Source: a virus. Taken from it: 33,395 bases of DNA. The stretch lies in IMG/VR virus record IMGVR_UViG_3300044619_002661, positions 1-33,395 of that record; one strand, written 5' to 3'. The first letter of the stretch is position 1. Each line of letters begins with the position of its first letter. A program made the position numbers and the translations under genes. Shown in pieces: positions 548 through 25,195 of the stretch. The notes beneath the pieces were generated by a model that made no database searches, was not told the origin of the DNA, and saw only the letters and a program-made list of their open reading frames with translations.

Positions 548-582
548 GTCCTAGAGCCACTTCAAAAGAGTGGCTTTTTTTG
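548..582 (+). promoter_or_regulatory. Candidate phage late promoter 1 (GTCCT-N26-TTTG), for the collagen-like fibre gene
   Basis: GTCCTAGAG begins at 548 and TTTG lies at 579-582, exactly 31 bases on. The ATG at 587 starts 4 bases after TTTG. The same arrangement recurs six more times in the genome. The spacer here contains a complete terminator hairpin, so the element would stop the upstream transcript and start the next one. Confidence 0.65.
555..582 (+). terminator. Intrinsic terminator after the tail genes
   Basis: A perfect 7-bp stem (AGCCACT 555-561, AGTGGCT 569-575) with a 7-base loop is followed by a run of seven T (575-581). It lies wholly inside candidate late promoter 1; the T run overlaps the TTTG element. 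Confidence 0.85.
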
Positions 583-4370: not shown

Positions 4371-6815
4371 ATGGCAGGACAATCAACAGAAACACAAGTA
4401 AACCTCAAGATAAACGGAGAATCCGCAGCAAACACGCTCAAGACAATGGGTGGAGAGGTGAGAGGTTTGCGAAAAGAACTTGCCGCAATACCAGTAGACA
4501 CACAGGCTTTTATTGACAAAGCAAAGGAGCTGGATGTGGCAGAAAACAGGCTTTTGGCTGCAAAGAATGCAGCCAAAGAAGTGAGAACTCAAATGAATGC
4601 CCTGGGAGATGATACCAAGAAAGCCAGAGCAGACCTGCTATCACTTTCACCTGTGGGAAGAATGTTGCAAAATCTGCAAGAAGGCTTTACCACAGTGAGA
4701 ACTGCAGTGGGAGCCAACATTGCAGGCATGAATCTTTTGAAGCTTGCCATTGCAGCCACAGGCATTGGCGCTTTGGTTATTGCCCTGGTTTCATTGGTAC
4801 AATACTTTAAAAACACTGATGATGGTGCCAAAAAGCTTGAAGGCGCAATGAAAGCACTTGGTTTCATTACCAACACCCTCATGAATGGATTTCAAAACCT
4901 TGGAAAATTTATGGTGGAGGCTTTTGACAATCCCAAAAAGGCACTTAATGAATTGGGGGATTTCTTGCTTAATAATTTGATAAACAGATTTAAGGCTTTT
5001 GCAGTCATACTGGATGGAATTATCAGTCTGGATTTTAAAAAAGTAACTGATGGAACCATCCAACTGGCATCCGGAGTGACAAATGCCACTGATAAAATTG
5101 CGGCTTTGGGTGATGAATTAAAGGCGGCAGCAGAGGCAGGTTTTGACCTGGCCAACATGATAGACGCATATGATGAAGCCCAGTCGAATGCTTTGGTGAC
5201 AAATGCAAAGTTTGAAGAGCAGATCTCCAGGTTGCTACTTCAATCCAAAGACCGCACCAAATCAGAAGAAGACAGGCTGGTTTTATTGGACAGGGCATCA
5301 TCATTGGAAACACAAAGGCTGCAGGATCAGATTTCACTTTCAAATCAAAATCTGGAAATCAAAAAACTGGAATTTGAGCAGGCACAAAAAACAGGCAACC
5401 AGACAGATGAGCAATACAAAGCTTTTAAAGAGGCAGAGGCAGAAATTATAGGGTTGAGAACTTCAAGCATAGAGCTCCAGGAAAAAATATCTAATAGGCG
5501 CAATGCCTTGCTGGAAGCTTCTGAGAACAAAAGGAAAACAATGGAGGAGGCTGAAAAGAAAGCCCAGGAAGACAAAGAAAAAGCAGAGCTTGACTACATA
5601 AGGAGACTTACAGACTTACGAATTACCAACATAGTGGATGAAGAAGACAGAAAGCGAGCTCAAATAGAAGTGTCTTTTCAAAGAGGTTTGGAGGATGCCG
5701 CACTCAAAGGCCAGCTCACTACAGATGTTGAACTTGAGCTCAAGCGGCAAAGGCAGTTAGCCCTGGATGAACTTGACAAAAGTGTGGAAGAACAACAGAT
5801 TCAGAGGATATTAACGGCAGAAGAATTAAGGCTTCAGGAACAGCAACTGGCAATTGAAAATCTGGTATTAACTGAGCAAGAAAAAGAAAATCGACTTTAT
5901 GAGGTAAACAGGATCGGGCTGGAAAACAGGCTTACACTTATGCGAACACAATATGGTGAGCAAAGCAATGAAGTAAAAAAAGCACTTCTTGAGCTGAGTA
6001 AGTTAGACACAGACCACCACAAGAAGACAACCGACAATTCAAAGAAATCAGCGGACTTTGATGCCAAGATCCAGCAACAAAGGTTTGATTTAACAGCCAG
6101 CGCTTTGGGAGGTATAGCTGAGTTATTACAATCTGATGTAAAAAACAGGCAAAAAAATGCCGAAATGATAAAGCTCTTTGCAGCCGGTGAAGCCATTGCC
6201 TTGGGTGTAAAAGAGGTGGCAGGTATTTGGTCAAATGCAAACATGAATGCACTTAATGCTGTGATACCAGGCTGGGGTCCGGCATTTGCCGCAGTGCAAA
6301 CAGCGCTGGCAGTGGTCAGAACTGGTGCCGCAGTCAATAACATAAACTCTACAAAATTTGCCAAAGGTGGTTTGAGCAGAGTAAATGGTGGCATTCTTCC
6401 TGGCAGAAGTCACGAGCAGGGAGGTGTAGGTCTGATTGACAATGCAACAGGGCGCAGCCTTGGCGAGGCTGAGGGTGGTGAGTTCTTTATGGTACTTTCA
6501 AAAAGCTTCACAGAAAGAAACAGGCCTGTTTTGGATATGTTTTTGGATGCCAGCCTTTCAGGTAGCAATAAAAGATTTTACAGAGAGGGTGGCTTTGGCA
6601 GCATAGATGATACCAATATGGTTTCAAATGCACCCGGAGGCGCTGCAGGTTCTAACCAGGAATTGATGTCAGTTACTAAGCAGCAAATAGAGCTACTTGC
6701 ATCCATCAACAACAGACTAGGAAACGGCCAGAGAATTCAGGCCACTGTATCCTATGAGCAGTCTCAGTCTGTGGCAGATGAAGCGGCTCAGATAGAGGCT
6801 GAAGCTTTGGCCTAG
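4371..6815 (+). CDS. Tail tape measure protein
   Basis: The 814-aa protein has the tape measure layout. It begins with helical N-terminal repeats, has a strongly hydrophobic segment at about residues 122-146 (AIAATGIGALVIALVSLV), then a long highly charged coiled-coil from about 250 to 600. It ends with an alanine-rich hydrophobic helix pair and the Gly-rich ending (AKGGLSRVNGGILPGRSHE, then AEGGEFFMVLSKS) seen in many Bacteroidota phage tape measures. It sets tail length and helps DNA entry. At about 1.5 angstrom per residue, 814 residues would give a tail near 120 nm. It is the last gene of the rightward late region and ends tail-to-tail, overlapping the integrase end by four bases. Being downstream of the fibre genes is an unusual order. 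Confidence 0.85.
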   Translation: MAGQSTETQVNLKINGESAANTLKTMGGEVRGLRKELAAIPVDTQAFIDKAKELDVAENRLLAAKNAAKEVRTQMNALGDDTKKARADLLSLSPVGRMLQNLQEGFTTVRTAVGANIAGMNLLKLAIAATGIGALVIALVSLVQYFKNTDDGAKKLEGAMKALGFITNTLMNGFQNLGKFMVEAFDNPKKALNELGDFLLNNLINRFKAFAVILDGIISLDFKKVTDGTIQLASGVTNATDKIAALGDELKAAAEAGFDLANMIDAYDEAQSNALVTNAKFEEQISRLLLQSKDRTKSEEDRLVLLDRASSLETQRLQDQISLSNQNLEIKKLEFEQAQKTGNQTDEQYKAFKEAEAEIIGLRTSSIELQEKISNRRNALLEASENKRKTMEEAEKKAQEDKEKAELDYIRRLTDLRITNIVDEEDRKRAQIEVSFQRGLEDAALKGQLTTDVELELKRQRQLALDELDKSVEEQQIQRILTAEELRLQEQQLAIENLVLTEQEKENRLYEVNRIGLENRLTLMRTQYGEQSNEVKKALLELSKLDTDHHKKTTDNSKKSADFDAKIQQQRFDLTASALGGIAELLQSDVKNRQKNAEMIKLFAAGEAIALGVKEVAGIWSNANMNALNAVIPGWGPAFAAVQTALAVVRTGAAVNNINSTKFAKGGLSRVNGGILPGRSHEQGGVGLIDNATGRSLGEAEGGEFFMVLSKSFTERNRPVLDMFLDASLSGSNKRFYREGGFGSIDDTNMVSNAPGGAAGSNQELMSVTKQQIELLASINNRLGNGQRIQATVSYEQSQSVADEAAQIEAEALA

Positions 6816-14108: not shown

Positions 14109-14314
14109 AATTCATTTCAAACTGCAACCAAATCCGCTGTGCATTTCGGGAGAATTGCCAGCGATATAACCCAGAAGGGAATGACACACCTATACTTATG
14201 TTTTTGCCAGATGGTGTGGTAGGTGACCATCTTGGTGAGCTTGATGGATGCACTGATTTCTGGCCTAAAAAAGAATTTTCAACAACAGAAAAAAAAATCA
14301 AAACCAATGTATAG
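14105..14314 (+). CDS. Small cysteine-containing protein, 69 aa
   Basis: Four cysteines (7, 12, 18 and 49) could form a metal site; CNQIRCAFRENC is compact. The C-terminus is basic (KKEFSTTEKKIKTN). It overlaps the preceding gene by four bases and the following one by eight. The cysteine pattern is reminiscent of small metal-binding regulators but no family is assigned. Confidence 0.5.
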   Translation: MKFISNCNQIRCAFRENCQRYNPEGNDTPILMFLPDGVVGDHLGELDGCTDFWPKKEFSTTEKKIKTNV

Positions 14315-14693
14315 CATCTATGCCTACCCACCACCCAAAAAAAAGGAGGTGATGTTGAAAAAGAAATTCAAATCAGAAAGCAGAGAAGAAGCCTTTTTGA
14401 TTTCAAAAAGCTTGCAGATGGAAGGCTACATTAATGTTCAGATTTGCGAGATTGAGAAAAAAGGCAAAGCCAAAATTTTTCAAACAATGGATGTAACAAA
14501 ACAGGCACTAGTGCTCAAGATAGGTGACAGATTTTACAGCAGGCACACAGGAGACAGAATTACAACTGCATGGACATTGGCTGGAGCATTTCTTTTTTTA
14601 GAAGGTGCGGCAGTTAAAATAGAAAATGTAGAAGAACTTTTGAAAAAGAAAGGCTATAATCCAATTCGTAAAATAGTTGAGGTATTGGATTAA
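14307..14693 (+). CDS. Hypothetical protein, 128 aa, last gene of the early operon
   Basis: I choose ATG 14307 (MYSIYAYPPP) rather than 14223, because the longer form would overlap the upstream gene by 92 bases and its extra residues look like a shadow frame. The product is basic at the N-terminus with a strand-helix mix and ends with a helical part. The hydrophobic TAWTLAGAFLFLEGAAV segment is not long enough for a sure membrane span. A strong terminator follows at 14722. Confidence 0.55.
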   Translation: MYSIYAYPPPKKKEVMLKKKFKSESREEAFLISKSLQMEGYINVQICEIEKKGKAKIFQTMDVTKQALVLKIGDRFYSRHTGDRITTAWTLAGAFLFLEGAAVKIENVEELLKKKGYNPIRKIVEVLD

Positions 14694-14721
14694 CTCATAA
14701 ACATGCGAAACTTTTAACATA

Positions 14722-14749
14722 AGCCCTGGAGAAATCCGGGGCTTTTTTT
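14722..14749 (+). terminator. Intrinsic terminator of the early/replication operon
   Basis: A 9-bp stem (AGCCCTGGA with TCCGGGGCT, one G-T pair) closes on a GAAA tetraloop and is followed by seven T (14743-14749). It separates the early operon from the protease gene, and candidate late promoter 2 begins three bases after it. Confidence 0.88.
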
Positions 14750-14751
14750 AA

Positions 14752-14786
14752 GTCCTTTTCTGAGATAGAGTTTGACCTCAGATTTG
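14752..14786 (+). promoter_or_regulatory. Candidate phage late promoter 2 (GTCCT-N26-TTTG), for the metalloprotease
   Basis: GTCCT at 14752 and TTTG at 14783-14786 keep the exact spacing of the class. The -7 octamer CAGATTTG is identical to that of promoter 7. Unlike most members, the ATG (14809) is 22 bases beyond TTTG, leaving a short leader. Confidence 0.6.
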
Positions 14787-14810
14787 AAAAAACAAATCAA
14801 AAAACTCTAT
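14765..14810. repeat. Nested inverted repeat across the metalloprotease promoter and start codon
   Basis: Outer arms ATAGAGTTT (14765-14773) and AAACTCTAT (14802-14810) are perfect, and inner arms GATTTG (14781-14786) and CAAATC (14793-14798) surround six A. The inner left arm contains the -7 TTTG and the outer right arm includes the first two bases of the start codon. It could be an operator, or an RNA hairpin on a read-through transcript that hides the start. Confidence 0.5.
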
Positions 14811-16452
14811 GAAAAACTTTGTGATGCTTGGAATGGTGGTTTTACTATCATTCAATGGGTTTGGGCAAAAATTTGCAAACACCCAGTCAGAAAAAAACAC
14901 GATTGCAGAAGCAATGCCGGATTTTTCACTATCTAAAAAACAGGATCTGAAAAATGGCATTTGCCTGGATATCCGGCCAAGCTTGATATCTCAGATTTAT
15001 GCCACAGAGCCACAGACAATTTCTATTTCTATTCCTGGGTGGCCTGCCATCAAATTGCAAAAGGCAGAAATCTTCTCACCAGACTTTGCGGTGACCACCT
15101 CTGATGGTGCCACATTGAGAGGAAAGCAATACAAGGGAGTGCACTATTTTTCAGAATCCGGGATTGATGGCATTTCTTTTTTTGCTGACAGATTGATGGG
15201 AGTTATCACAAAAAACAATATTGCCTACAACCTGGGCAAAGAAGAGAAAGGCACCAGGTATGTTTTAATTTCTGAAAAGGATGGCCCGGCAATTGATTTC
15301 AATTGCCAGACACAGGATGAAAATGATTTTCCAACAAGCTCCAGACCTGCACCTGCCATCACTGCTTCCTGTAAAATTACCAGAATAGCCTTGGAGGCTG
15401 ATTTTGATTTGTATGTAAAATCAAACTCCTCTGTGAGTACCCTGGCAAACTTTACATCCGGAATTTTCAATGTAGTAAAACAAATCTATAGAAAGGAAGG
15501 TGTGGCCATCCAGTATGCAAGCCTGTTTATCTGGACCACTGTGGACCCTTATGCGACATTAACTCAGCCTTTCCAGATTTTACCATTGTTTTCAGCAAAT
15601 AGGCCCAAGCTACCAAGCTTTGACCTCATCCACTTATTGGAAAACAGGACGAATTCATTTGGCGGCATTGCCTTTGTGGGTGGGCTTTGCAATGGTTCGC
15701 CACATGGTGTTTCCAGTATTTTTTATAGTTTTAATCAATTACCACTTTACAGCTGGACAGTCTCTGTGGTATGTCATGAGCTTGGCCACAATTTCAACAG
15801 CAAGCACACACATTGGTGTGGATGGAATAAAGGCAACAATATCTATGGAAGACTTGATTCATGCTATGCAGGTGAAGGCTTTACACCACCTGCCGGAGCC
15901 ACTGTAGTTGGTTGCAACAGCACAAAAGCCTATAACTTTTCTGGAACCATTATGAGTTACTGCTACAACTATGGAGCGGTGAACCTCAACAAAGGTTTTG
16001 GCAAGCTCCCTGGTGATGTGATTCGGTTGTATGTAGCGCAAGGTGGATGCCTGCCAACAGTTACGAGCCCGATATGCGACAGCCTTAACACAACCATAGT
16101 GCAGCCACCACCACCTCCTCCAGCTCAATGTGTGACTGGATTGCAACATTTCACCAATGCATCCGGGCAAAGTTGTTTTCGATTTAACATACAGCCTGGA
16201 TGCAGATACACGCTCAACTATTGCAGATATGATGGCTACACCCAGGCAAACCAACCACCCTCCGGAGCCACCCCCTCTGCCTGTGGAATTCGAAATGGAT
16301 TGAGCAACTATCTGCCAACAGCCATTCAGCTTGCAGCTGGCAAAATAGAACTGGTGGCAAATGGCCAGCCATCATTCAGGCAAAGGTGGTATTCCCTCAG
16401 ATGCCAGGGCAGTGATGGCATCACACAGCTACATTTCTTTTGGTGGCCTTAG
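14809..16452 (+). CDS. Secreted metzincin (reprolysin-like) zinc metalloprotease
   Basis: The 547-aa protein starts with a Sec signal peptide (about residues 1-19, hydrophobic core VMLGMVVLLSF, ending GFGQ). A propeptide-like region runs to about 185. The catalytic domain has the extended zinc motif H323-E-L-G-H327-x5-H333 and a Met-turn with M382 (GTIMSYC), which define metzincins; the whole resembles reprolysin-like (M12) proteases of Bacteroidota. A six-proline linker near 430 leads to a Cys-rich C-terminal domain of about 110 residues. It should be exported, cut by autolysis and act on proteins outside the cytoplasm. The gene stands alone between terminators but has a late-type promoter, so it is probably made in the lytic phase. 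Roles could be degrading host surface or matrix protein, or being packed in the virion. A host-derived cargo gene is the alternative reading. Confidence 0.85.
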   Translation: MKNFVMLGMVVLLSFNGFGQKFANTQSEKNTIAEAMPDFSLSKKQDLKNGICLDIRPSLISQIYATEPQTISISIPGWPAIKLQKAEIFSPDFAVTTSDGATLRGKQYKGVHYFSESGIDGISFFADRLMGVITKNNIAYNLGKEEKGTRYVLISEKDGPAIDFNCQTQDENDFPTSSRPAPAITASCKITRIALEADFDLYVKSNSSVSTLANFTSGIFNVVKQIYRKEGVAIQYASLFIWTTVDPYATLTQPFQILPLFSANRPKLPSFDLIHLLENRTNSFGGIAFVGGLCNGSPHGVSSIFYSFNQLPLYSWTVSVVCHELGHNFNSKHTHWCGWNKGNNIYGRLDSCYAGEGFTPPAGATVVGCNSTKAYNFSGTIMSYCYNYGAVNLNKGFGKLPGDVIRLYVAQGGCLPTVTSPICDSLNTTIVQPPPPPPAQCVTGLQHFTNASGQSCFRFNIQPGCRYTLNYCRYDGYTQANQPPSGATPSACGIRNGLSNYLPTAIQLAAGKIELVANGQPSFRQRWYSLRCQGSDGITQLHFFWWP

Positions 16453-16458
16453 TTTAAG

Positions 16459-16526
16459 AGCTGAGAATCCTGTATTGCAGCCTACACCCTTGCTATTTAA
16501 AAAATATGGGATTCTCAGCTTCTTTT
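16459..16526 (+). terminator. Long-loop hairpin after the metalloprotease gene
   Basis: A perfect 12-bp inverted repeat (AGCTGAGAATCC 16459-16470, GGATTCTCAGCT 16509-16520) with a 38-base loop is followed by TCTTTT. It begins seven bases after the stop. It is a plausible terminator, although the loop is long and the T run interrupted. Confidence 0.55.
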
Positions 16527-16717
16527 ATCCAGACCCTCCCCTACCCACCTATCCGGATGTATATCCTGAATTTTCCTTTTATAAAATAAAAAAAGTTATG
16601 TCAAAAAAGCGAAAGGGATACTGCCTTCAGGTTTTGGAGGCTAGTCTGGATATAGAGGTGACTGTAAACCTCCAAAACCTTCAGAATTATTTCGATTTTA
16701 GCAAGGTGGCATATTTT

Positions 16718-16985
16718 CGACCTACACGACCTACAGACCTACAGACTATATATATATTTCTTCTTTTTAATTATAAAATATTTATATATAAGGGGTTAGG
16801 TTTTTGGTTTTGCGGTTTTGGCTGTAGGTTTTCTGTAGGTTTTTTGTAGGTCGTGTAGGACGGATTGAGTTTTGTAGGAAAATGCCGACCTACAGATTTG
16901 GGTGAATTCAAAAATCGACCTACAAAATTTAAACTGAAAGCCAGAGAGTTAAGGCACTTTGTAGGACTGTAGGACATGTAGGTCG
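16718..16985. repeat. Iteron array: 13 copies of TGTAGG(T/A) in both orientations (candidate origin)
   Basis: Minus-oriented CGACCTACA or GACCTACA units lie at 16718, 16727, 16736, 16886 and 16916. Plus-oriented TGTAGGT/TGTAGGA units lie at 16823, 16834, 16845, 16854, 16873, 16960, 16968 and 16977. Within clusters the spacing is 8-11 bp, close to one helical turn. An AT-rich stretch (16744-16798, mostly TATATA and AATTATAAAATATTTATATATA) separates the left and right clusters, as in an origin with a DNA-unwinding element. The array fills the largest gene-free stretch of the phage (16453-17211). Protein-binding iterons for replication or a regulatory array are the two readings; no gene was accepted here. 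Confidence 0.6.
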
Positions 16986-17093
16986 CAAAAACACCCCACA
17001 TTGAAAAACATATTTTTTTACCTCCCAGAAAAACAAAAAAACTCTAACCCTAAAAAAAAGCCAGATACCAGGTAGATATGATATCAATAAAAA

Positions 17094-17126
17094 TTTGATT
17101 ATTTCAAGAAAGTTAGAATACTTTTG
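17094..17126 (+). promoter_or_regulatory. Host-type (Bacteroidota) promoter, first of two in tandem
   Basis: TTTG (17094-17097), a 21-base spacer, and TACTTTTG (17119-17126) match the Bacteroidota sigma-A form TTTG-N19-21-TAnnTTTG. The 15 bases around the -7 element (17114-17128) are repeated exactly at 17171-17185. Confidence 0.65.
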
Positions 17127-17148
17127 TCACATTAAATTTAAGACCTAA

Positions 17149-17183
17149 TTTGTTGTTTAATAATATTTTATAGAATACTTTTG
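17149..17183 (+). promoter_or_regulatory. Host-type promoter, second of two in tandem, for the 17212 gene
   Basis: TTG (17153-17155) is 20 bases from TACTTTTG (17176-17183); TTTG at 17149 is also present at a 23-base spacing. Transcription would start near 17190, about 20 bases before the ATG. This contrasts with the GTCCT promoters downstream. Confidence 0.65.
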
Positions 17184-17211
17184 TCTTATTCAAAAATGGT
17201 ACTTTTCAAAT

Positions 17212-17706
17212 ATGATTAAACAGCATATTCTTCCTGTAAAGCCTTATGTATTTCAGGTTTTGCAGCATCAACTTGAAAATGGGGTTTTGAAAATCAACCG
17301 GAGAGTAGTCCGGACCATAACCAACCCGGTGAGGGTAAAGGAATACTTTGACAGGAATAAAAACTCAAAGTATTGCATAAAGGTAGAACTGCAAACCAGT
17401 TCCTTATACACTTTGCACGGCCTGCAGATGGAACTGGCAAGCCAATTCCGGGATAAACTTTACACCCATATAGCCATTTCAGTAAAGAGTGGATCTTCCG
17501 CAATGGGTGCTCTCAGGAGTTTTTTTGAGTTTTACAACATTACGGAAGACCAATATGATTTAAGCAGTGCATATCGCACCTGGCTAAGGGAGAAGGAAAA
17601 ATATCTGAACCCAAAAGAATACATGGAAAAAAAGATATGCCAGAAAGCAGAAAAGCAAGAGCAAAAACCAAAGAACAATTCTCAATTGACCATTTTCGGT
17701 CCTTAA
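17212..17706 (+). CDS. Hypothetical protein, 164 aa; candidate late-gene activator
   Basis: This is the first gene after the iteron array and the only late-region gene behind clear host-type promoters. The N-terminal 100 residues are mixed and basic (LKINRRVVRTITNPVRVKEY). Residues about 98-130 (GSSAMGALRSFFEFYNITED then DLSSAYRTWLREKEKY) read as two or three helices that could form a DNA-binding unit, and recall in a general way the C-terminal part of Mor/C-type phage activators; this likeness is weak. The C-terminus is lysine- and glutamine-rich. The stop overlaps candidate late promoter 3, which begins at 17699. I infer a regulator that turns on the GTCCT promoters. A replication-initiator role (iteron binding) is the main alternative. 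Confidence 0.5.
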   Translation: MIKQHILPVKPYVFQVLQHQLENGVLKINRRVVRTITNPVRVKEYFDRNKNSKYCIKVELQTSSLYTLHGLQMELASQFRDKLYTHIAISVKSGSSAMGALRSFFEFYNITEDQYDLSSAYRTWLREKEKYLNPKEYMEKKICQKAEKQEQKPKNNSQLTIFGP

Positions 17707-17733
17707 CAATATATGGCTGCACCTTCACTTTTG
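17699..17733 (+). promoter_or_regulatory. Candidate phage late promoter 3 (GTCCT-N26-TTTG), for the endolysin
   Basis: GTCCTTAAC starts at 17699, inside the last codons of the 17212 gene, and TTTG lies at 17730-17733 within CACTTTTG. The GTG start of the amidase begins 4 bases after TTTG, the same distance as at four other genes, which supports GTG as the true start. Confidence 0.65.
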
Positions 17734-18938: not shown

Positions 18939-18973
18939 GTCCTAAAAGAAAAATCATTTCTTCAAAATCTTTG
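18939..18973 (+). promoter_or_regulatory. Candidate phage late promoter 4 (GTCCT-N26-TTTG), for the head operon
   Basis: GTCCTAAAA at 18939 is three bases after the previous stop; TTTG is at 18970-18973 within AATCTTTG; ATG 18978 follows after 4 bases. No terminator is apparent before it. Confidence 0.65.
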
Positions 18974-21938: not shown

Positions 21939-21973
21939 GTCCTAAAGCCACTCATTTTGAGTGGCTTTTTTTG
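21939..21973 (+). promoter_or_regulatory. Candidate phage late promoter 5 (GTCCT-N26-TTTG)
   Basis: GTCCTAAAG at 21939 and TTTG at 21970-21973 match the class. The spacer contains a full terminator hairpin, as at promoter 1. The downstream ATG (22007) is 33 bases past TTTG, the longest leader of the group. Confidence 0.6.
21946..21972 (+). terminator. Intrinsic terminator after the capsid transcript
   Basis: A perfect 9-bp stem (AGCCACTCA 21946-21954, TGAGTGGCT 21958-21966) with a three-base loop is followed by seven T. Its stem sequence AGCCACT/AGTGGCT equals that of the terminator at 555, and it is inside candidate late promoter 5. Confidence 0.88.
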
Positions 21974-22006: not shown

Positions 22007-22777
22007 ATGGCAACCATAAAAGAAAAAGCCATCGCCTGGCTGGAAGGCGAAACCAAAGACTACCAGGAAGGCTTAAATCTGGTAAGAGAAATTACTTTAA
22101 ACAAAGGCTTACTTTCCTCTTTGGATGCAAAACGAAACGACAGGCACCTGGACAAGATCAACTATCTTTTGTCTCAGTATTGCAGCGCAGAATATAAGGT
22201 CTTAGCAGTTGTTGCTGATATAACACCACAGCCGGAAAAAGCAATAAAAGTTTTGCCTTTGAACCCGGATGATGCAAGGCAGCTTGAAGCTGATGATTTT
22301 GTGAAAAAATTACCAGTTGGTGTTCAGGAGTTGGTAGCCAATAAAAAAAGGCTTTTCAATGAAAGAAACATCCGATCTCAAAAAATTACAGACCTCACCG
22401 ATAATGTAGAAGCAGACCAACAAATACCTTTTGAGGTGGAAGAATTGGTGAAAGAAGTATTGAATATTGATGAAGACATCAAAGCGATAGACAGCCAGCT
22501 GGCTTTCTTTTTTGCAACCGGAGCCATGGCTCAATTAAGGAAAGCAGATCCGCAGGTATCTGACCTGGAGCCGGAAACAATGGAAAGCATTGAGAAGAAA
22601 ATCAACAACAAAAAAAGCCAGGTAAGCAAAGCAAAAAAAGCATATGAGTTGAAGCCAGATGATGTGGCCAAAGCCGAAAAGTTTGCAAAAATGGAACTGG
22701 AATTGAAAGACTTAATATTTCAAAAAGAAACTATGAAGCAGAATGCAGTAGCAGCTTCAACAGTAAAAAGCGATTAA
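22007..22777 (+). CDS. Hypothetical helical protein, 256 aa
   Basis: This protein is wholly helical and charged, with a coiled-coil C-terminal half (IEKKINNKKSQVSKAKKAYE and KMELELKDLIFQKETMKQ). It has its own candidate promoter (5) and terminator (22799), so it is made as a single-gene transcript between the capsid and terminase genes. No domain was recognised. It could be a tail-assembly or scaffold-like factor; the monocistronic layout suggests that its amount matters. Confidence 0.6.
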   Translation: MATIKEKAIAWLEGETKDYQEGLNLVREITLNKGLLSSLDAKRNDRHLDKINYLLSQYCSAEYKVLAVVADITPQPEKAIKVLPLNPDDARQLEADDFVKKLPVGVQELVANKKRLFNERNIRSQKITDLTDNVEADQQIPFEVEELVKEVLNIDEDIKAIDSQLAFFFATGAMAQLRKADPQVSDLEPETMESIEKKINNKKSQVSKAKKAYELKPDDVAKAEKFAKMELELKDLIFQKETMKQNAVAASTVKSD

Positions 22778-22831: not shown

Positions 22832-22866
22832 GTCCTAAAGTTGCCAGTTACCAGTTGCCATTTTTG
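22832..22866 (+). promoter_or_regulatory. Candidate phage late promoter 6 (GTCCT-N26-TTTG), for the terminase genes
   Basis: GTCCTAAAG at 22832 and TTTG at 22863-22866 within CATTTTTG; ATG 22871 follows after 4 bases. This supports 22871 rather than the TTG at 22841 as the start of the small terminase gene. Confidence 0.65.
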
Positions 22867-25160: not shown

Positions 25161-25195
25161 GTCCTATTTAAAAAAATAGTAAGCGCTCAGATTTG
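25161..25195 (+). promoter_or_regulatory. Candidate phage late promoter 7 (GTCCT-N26-TTTG), for the portal and tail genes
   Basis: GTCCTATTT at 25161 and TTTG at 25192-25195 within CAGATTTG; ATG 25200 follows after 4 bases. From here genes run without a gap large enough for another promoter through the circular junction to the terminator at 555. Confidence 0.65.

Follow-up and report, generated by a model that had tools for sequence, protein, structure and literature searches.

Exported proteases encoded by phages are easily dismissed as lysogenic cargo, and the locus described here raises the question of whether one such protease serves the lysogen or is made during lytic development, and where it would act. 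The locus lies in a 33,395-nucleotide stretch of viral DNA (IMG/VR record IMGVR_UViG_3300044619_002661), the whole of which we refer to as the window. The window phage has integrase and repressor genes. The contig ends (1-306 and 33090-33395) overlap over about 300 bases with scattered mismatches, and therefore the genome is probably complete and was circularly assembled from a mixed population.

A preliminary description of this DNA had proposed an exported zinc protease of 547 residues, and this was borne out by our analysis: the motifs HELGHNFNSKH (residues 323-333) and GTIMSYC (residues 379-385) lie in one frame, 14809-16452. The first position of the region given there, 14752, proved to be that of a GTCCT box, the gene itself beginning at 14809. 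Residues H323, E324, H327, H333 and M382 were identical in all 30 aligned catalytic domains. N330 of the window protease falls at a position that is G or S in all its relatives, glycine being usual in the zinc motif. The metzincin zinc motif, HEXXHXX(G/N)XXH, permits N at the eighth place, and the window protease has both this motif and the Met-turn of the metzincin clan. Four Pfam M12B models (PF13688, PF13582, PF01421 and PF13583) scored above their curated cut-offs, with E-values of 3.2e-12 for Reprolysin_5, 1.5e-10 for Reprolysin_3 and 1.4e-08 for Reprolysin, and the best solved relatives by sequence were snake venom metalloproteinases (BaP1, 3.8e-07). The protein had no PHROG match and no NCBIfam match up to E 0.05, the fragilysin model TIGR03935 included, and no such protease was found among 50,697 records of isolate phages. 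Judged from its sequence, the gene product is, with little doubt, an exported and probably active protease.

The predicted signal peptide ends in GFG|Q, and the same Q ending occurs in the proteases of eight relatives (L002, L003, L007, L008, L030, L032, L039 and L041). This Q-rule has been described for the signal peptides of Bacteroidota (PMC5837995), and Porphyromonas phages have been reported to encode Q-rule proteins (PMC10367356). Behind the signal peptide lies a prodomain, at the end of which C166, shared by 24 of 27 aligned relatives in an (F/W)xC context, is a candidate cysteine switch. An AlphaFold model built from 36 sequences (pLDDT 81.6, pTM 0.70), which superseded a run with 10 sequences (pLDDT 53.7), predicts an ADAM-like zymogen: residues 43-421 align to zymogen ADAM17 with a Z of 26.9 (3.6 A over 314 residues), in a comparison with the PDB that covers mainly residues 38-422 and leaves the C-terminal domain largely outside. 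In the fold search, no viral model matched at E 0.001.

Pfam recognized nothing beyond the protease domain in the window protein, and the C-terminal domain had no Pfam match even at E 5. Further exported proteins encoded by the giant phage contigs G005, G006 and G017 end in the same domain, among them an 835-residue protein of G005 that has no protease match, and four Cytophagaceae genomes each encode one chromosomal protease with this domain (148 genomes of the order were searched). No T9SS sorting domain model of Pfam or NCBIfam, Por_Secre_tail or other, matched the window protein; the protease of one relative (L039) does carry a T9SS sorting domain (Pfam 4.6e-07, above its cut-off).

Table 1. 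Coordinates of the protease locus and of the composite promoters in the window
Feature	Position	Strand	Basis or remark
Predicted promoter of collagen-like fibre gene	548..582	+	GTCCT-N26-TTTG; start codon 587 at predicted +1
Intrinsic terminator closing upstream (early/middle) unit	14721..14750	+	10-bp stem AAGCCCTGGAGAAATCCGGGGCTT, then T-run; immediately 5' of promoter
Predicted late promoter of protease	14752..14786	+	GTCCT (14752-14756)-N22-CAGATTTG (14779-14786)
M12B (reprolysin/ADAM-like) secreted metalloprotease	14809..16452	+	547 aa, frame open throughout
Sec signal peptide, predicted cleavage G19|Q20 (Q-rule)	14809..14865	+	Sequence; N-terminus MKNFVMLGMVVLLSFNGFG|Q
Prodomain, residues about 43-165, and candidate cysteine-switch C166 (codon 15304-15306)	14935..15306	+	Alignment, model
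Catalytic domain, residues about 186-422	15364..16074	+	Pfam; VIA-align to ADAM and snake venom metalloproteinases, Z 16.5-18
Zinc-binding motif HELGHNFNSKH	15775..15807	+	H, E, H, H invariant in 30/30
Met-turn GTIMSYC	15943..15963	+	M382, S383, Y384 invariant in 30/30
C-terminal domain, about 108 aa	16126..16449	+	No Pfam match; common to phage exported proteins and Cytophagaceae proteases
Probable terminator of protease unit	16459..16528	+	12-bp perfect hairpin, 38-nt loop, T-rich tail; read from sequence
Predicted promoter of amidase/endolysin gene	17699..17733	+	GTCCT-N26-TTTG; GTG 17738 at predicted +1
Predicted promoter of head maturation protease/major capsid unit	18939..18973	+	GTCCT-N26-TTTG; ATG 18978 at predicted +1
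Predicted promoter before gene 22007	21939..21973	+	GTCCT-N26-TTTG
Predicted promoter of small/large terminase unit	22832..22866	+	GTCCT-N26-TTTG; ATG 22871 at predicted +1
Predicted promoter of gene 25200/portal unit	25161..25195	+	GTCCT-N26-TTTG; ATG 25200 at predicted +1

As had been noted before, the gene stands alone between terminators: one hairpin precedes it (14721-14744, followed by a T-run) and another, with arms at 16459-16470 and 16509-16520, follows it and was missed by a scan for short-loop terminators. A near-identical terminator sequence is found 5' of the protease genes of the relatives L009 and L002. Transcription from the promoter between the upstream terminator and the gene is predicted to start at 14791, giving an 18-nt leader.

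The GTCCT element, to which the preliminary description had ascribed the common control of the protease, capsid, terminase and endolysin genes, was by itself not enriched in the window (40 sites versus 47 expected). What these units have in common is a composite, GTCCT-N26-TTTG, which was first spotted by eye, as each of the intergenic GTCCTs on the plus strand had TTTG exactly 26 bases on. It occurs seven times in the window, always on the plus strand, versus 0.44 expected, and this count was reached in 0 of 100 shuffles; every other spacing on the plus strand stayed at single counts. Moreover, 6 of the 12 plus-strand GTCCTs are intergenic, though intergenic DNA makes up 6% of the window. The link to the capsid holds for the transcription unit but not for the gene: the major capsid gene (20427) lacks its own box and is part of the unit in which the head maturation protease gene comes first. 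The gene at 587-1978, also under one of the predicted late promoters, encodes a collagen-like protein with GPQGPTGDT repeats, a tail fibre by PHROGs.

Because the flavobacterial TAnnTTTG box spans -12 to -5 (PMC9723704), TTTG of the composite would end at -5 and GTCCT would lie at -39 to -35. With this numbering, the start codon falls at +1 in five of the seven units, and therefore leaderless mRNAs are predicted for them. In Flavobacterium psychrophilum, only 5.5% of mRNAs are leaderless (PMC9723704). For comparison, leaders shorter than 10 nt account for about 3.7% in B. thetaiotaomicron. As in the sigma-A promoters of Bacteroidota, which have TAnnTTTG at -7, TTTG of the -7 box is at the expected place. 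Unlike in these promoters, the phage sites have GTCCT at -39 to -35 rather than TTTG at -33, their -7 box often begins with CA, and many of them are predicted to be leaderless.

As visual inspection of the window itself had suggested the rule, other sequences were used to test it. A 12.5-kb relative, L009, the capsid protein of which is 92% identical, has seven composite sites versus 0.17 expected. Six of them precede orthologues of the promoter-bearing genes of the window, the protease gene included (site at 1596), even though the spacers have diverged, and the seventh is 5' of a permuted tmRNA. The protease gene of L002 is likewise preceded by a composite site (5934). Among all viral contigs, TTTTTTATGTCCT-N26-TTTG was found in at least 119 stretches, versus 31 in all for an N24 control. 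Across the 79 N26 loci examined, 36 non-seed GTCCT-Nd-TTTG sites had d=26, and 1-7 had each other d from 18 to 35; the N24 control loci contained one non-seed site at d=26. The start codon was exactly at +1 for 22 of 81 seed sites. Nameable genes behind the sites elsewhere were mostly those of head maturation proteases, tape measure proteins, a holin and other virion proteins. From the -7 box and the weak homology of two late genes to those of Polaribacter and Flavobacterium phages, we infer that the contigs with GTCCT-N26-TTTG are those of Bacteroidota phages. The class is not universal, as neither Polaribacter phage Leef_1 nor Flavobacterium phage 6H has such a site. In the contig of L002 (G001), only the tmRNA and the protease have an exact composite site; its late genes have none, and there are a few GTCTT-like sites.

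Taken together, these results place the protease, very probably, in the late regulon, as read from its promoter. They agree with the lytic-phase synthesis proposed in the preliminary description: the fixed-spacing promoter is common to lysis, head, packaging and fibre genes, and L009 keeps it before the protease. A phage exported protease is thus placed in the late programme by a promoter signature, which makes its role at release testable. In the literature searched, with subscription journals largely outside it, no description of the rule of GTCCT, 26 bases and TTTG was found. Our broader proposal is tentative, and we hold it with less than even confidence: that GTCCT at -39 to -35 with TTTG ending at -5 represents a widespread, undescribed class of late promoters of Bacteroidota phages, probably dependent on an activator made by the phage and often yielding leaderless mRNAs, and that its regulon includes secreted zymogen proteases acting outside the cell at lysis. 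With this rule, late units, including those for secreted late proteins, can be read from the genomes of uncultured phages. Signal-peptide-like N-termini are present about 20-46 nt behind the predicted GTCCT-N26-TTTG starts in five contigs (L119, L127, L149, L070 and L175), which suggests that further secreted phage proteins belong to the late set.

Several other features were observed in these regions. A conserved family of 150-200 residues, encoded just 5' of late genes (window 17212-17706, L141 9979-10641, L217 29520-29993), is a candidate late regulator. Homologues of gene 17212 were present at 12-13 of 118 GTCCT loci and at none of 31 control loci. We do not assign this gene as the GTCCT activator, as it has homologues in Leef_1 (6.7e-31) and 6H (7.2e-09), both devoid of GTCCT-N26-TTTG. 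In the non-coding region 16714-17195 of the window, CGACCTACA / TGTAGGTCG motifs recur in both orientations, and TAGAATACTTTTGTC is present twice (17114 and 17171) 5' of gene 17212. A recurrent family with N-terminal W..G.xY..G..LY, mostly predicted to be leaderless, is encoded behind GTCCT promoters (window 22007-22777 and many of L075-L169), and one GTCCT-driven gene (alignment A7 proteins) matches Tad2-like PF11195, Thoeris anti-defence, at 1e-25. The permuted (two-piece) tmRNAs (Rfam RF04321, 57.9 and 55.3 bits; tag GKQINVNFAASRKLAA) lie in L009 at 1197-1561 and in L002 at about 5688-5899 (L019 2975-3186), directly 5' of the protease and each with its own GTCCT-N26-TTTG promoter; the window has none. 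Most known permuted tmRNAs come from alpha- and betaproteobacteria, cyanobacteria and certain aquatic phages (PMC11915505, PMC9004378).

In a maximum-likelihood tree, a clade of phage sequences alone (98/99) comprises the proteases of the window, L002, L003, L004 and L024 and adjoins chromosomal Cytophagaceae genes. Because the phage and host labels switch at least three times in the tree, phages gained such proteases more than once. The dN/dS values of about 0.15 and 0.09 in two close pairs indicate purifying selection. The proteases encoded next to the housekeeping gene frr in Cytophagaceae MAGs (L047, L052, L054 and L055) share the signal peptide, the M12B domain and the C-terminal domain with the window protease and are 37-44% identical to it overall; they differ from it in their chromosomal neighbours and in an extra linker of about 100 residues between the protease and C-terminal domains. 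The gene probably derives from an ancient transfer of a secreted protease gene of a host and was then retained in phages.

That close homologues in hosts are secreted proteases of an ordinary chromosomal kind, encoded next to frr, would also suit a role in lysogenic conversion, in which the protease would be expressed from the prophage and aid the lysogen, e.g., in nutrient gain or competition, as secreted proteases of the host family do. The integrase and repressor genes fit this as well, and so might the solitary position between terminators, which the preliminary description took as the usual mark of cargo and which we find uninformative either way. However, the sole upstream promoter recognized is of the class that drives the head, terminase and amidase genes, and L009 retains it. 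We consider this explanation unlikely.

Late control, export and a zymogen form, as predicted from the sequence and model, fit an action at the envelope or outside the cell around lysis. In the scheme that we favour, a temperate Bacteroidota phage would make a secreted ADAM-like zymogen in the late lytic phase. The protein would leave the cytoplasm via the Sec pathway of the host, C166 would keep it inactive until processing outside, and the active protease would cut envelope, surface or matrix proteins of the host around lysis. As a result, either the outer envelope would be weakened for the endolysin, or the surface proteins and debris to which progeny stick or bind again would be cleared. 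We give this scheme as a whole, a late secreted ADAM-like zymogen acting at the host surface around lysis, an even chance. An action on the host surface around cell burst is probable, and an accessory part in lysis or release is the main role that we would name, at slightly less than even confidence.

The breakdown of host surface for release, also put forward in the preliminary description, is made plausible by a listerial analogue and by the neighbourhoods of the gene in other phages, where related proteases are encoded within or next to lysis cassettes. In both the window and L009, the protease gene is found where the early and late modules meet, one gene from the amidase gene. In L039, it is flanked by a DUF5675 gene and a Phage_holin_4_1 gene. 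In L004-L006, it adjoins a convergent M15_3 endolysin gene and small ORFs, membrane- and lipoprotein-like in L004; the proteases themselves have a lipoprotein-type signal (LFGC) at the N-terminus, and the neighbouring small ORFs are holin- and spanin-like in look, with no family match. Two neighbourhoods count against a role in release: the L030 protease gene is in a run of small and replicative-looking genes, and the giant phage G006 has three tandem exported proteases in its tail operon.

A late exported protease could also remove the surface proteins that serve as receptors, so that progeny would avoid dead cells or infected cells would escape re-infection. In that case, the catalytic domain would be expected to vary, because the substrates would vary between hosts. 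In fact, this domain is only about 60-62% identical between the window protease and those of L002 and L003, versus 81-83% for the C-terminal domain, and most of the flanking structural genes of L009 show 86-92% identity. However, this divergence could also stem from recombination importing another allele; we regard receptor clearing as improbable, to the same degree as lysogenic conversion. M12B domains do occur inside very long phage proteins with TPTPT repeats and without an evident signal peptide (L036 6315-14615, and L040 3-1766, the start of which is cut), possibly virion adhesins. It is very doubtful that the window protease is itself part of the virion, as was suggested earlier, and acts at entry, since its export signal and zymogen prodomain suit an extracytoplasmic route better than cytoplasmic virion assembly, the repeat-rich proteins of L036 and L040 and the location of the three G006 proteases notwithstanding.

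Returning to the late secreted zymogen that we favour, several known proteins can be compared with it. Like profragilysin of Bacteroides fragilis, the window protein has a predicted prodomain-plus-catalytic fold (Z about 20, 10-12% identity); unlike fragilysin, it fails the NCBIfam fragilysin model. It resembles the M12B reprolysins/adamalysins (ADAM and snake venom proteins) in the sequence of its catalytic domain and in the same predicted fold, but has no disintegrin, cysteine-rich, EGF or membrane segment, and ends in a bacterial C-terminal domain instead. Its closest tested analogue, as judged by description rather than by sequence likeness of the two metzincins, is Mtz-Tim of Listeria phage elements, a phage-derived secreted metzincin that raises phage-mediated lysis in tests and is encoded after holin-lysin in prophages (PMC8235301). 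Both are secreted metzincins encoded by phage elements. Mtz-Tim acts in a Gram-positive host, with a TIMP-like lipoprotein partner and a gene placed after holin-lysin. The window protease, in contrast, would be made in a host of the Gram-negative type; no partner is recognized next door, as the neighbours 14223-14693 and 17212-17706 have neither a lipobox nor a related match, and the gene has a predicted late promoter of its own.
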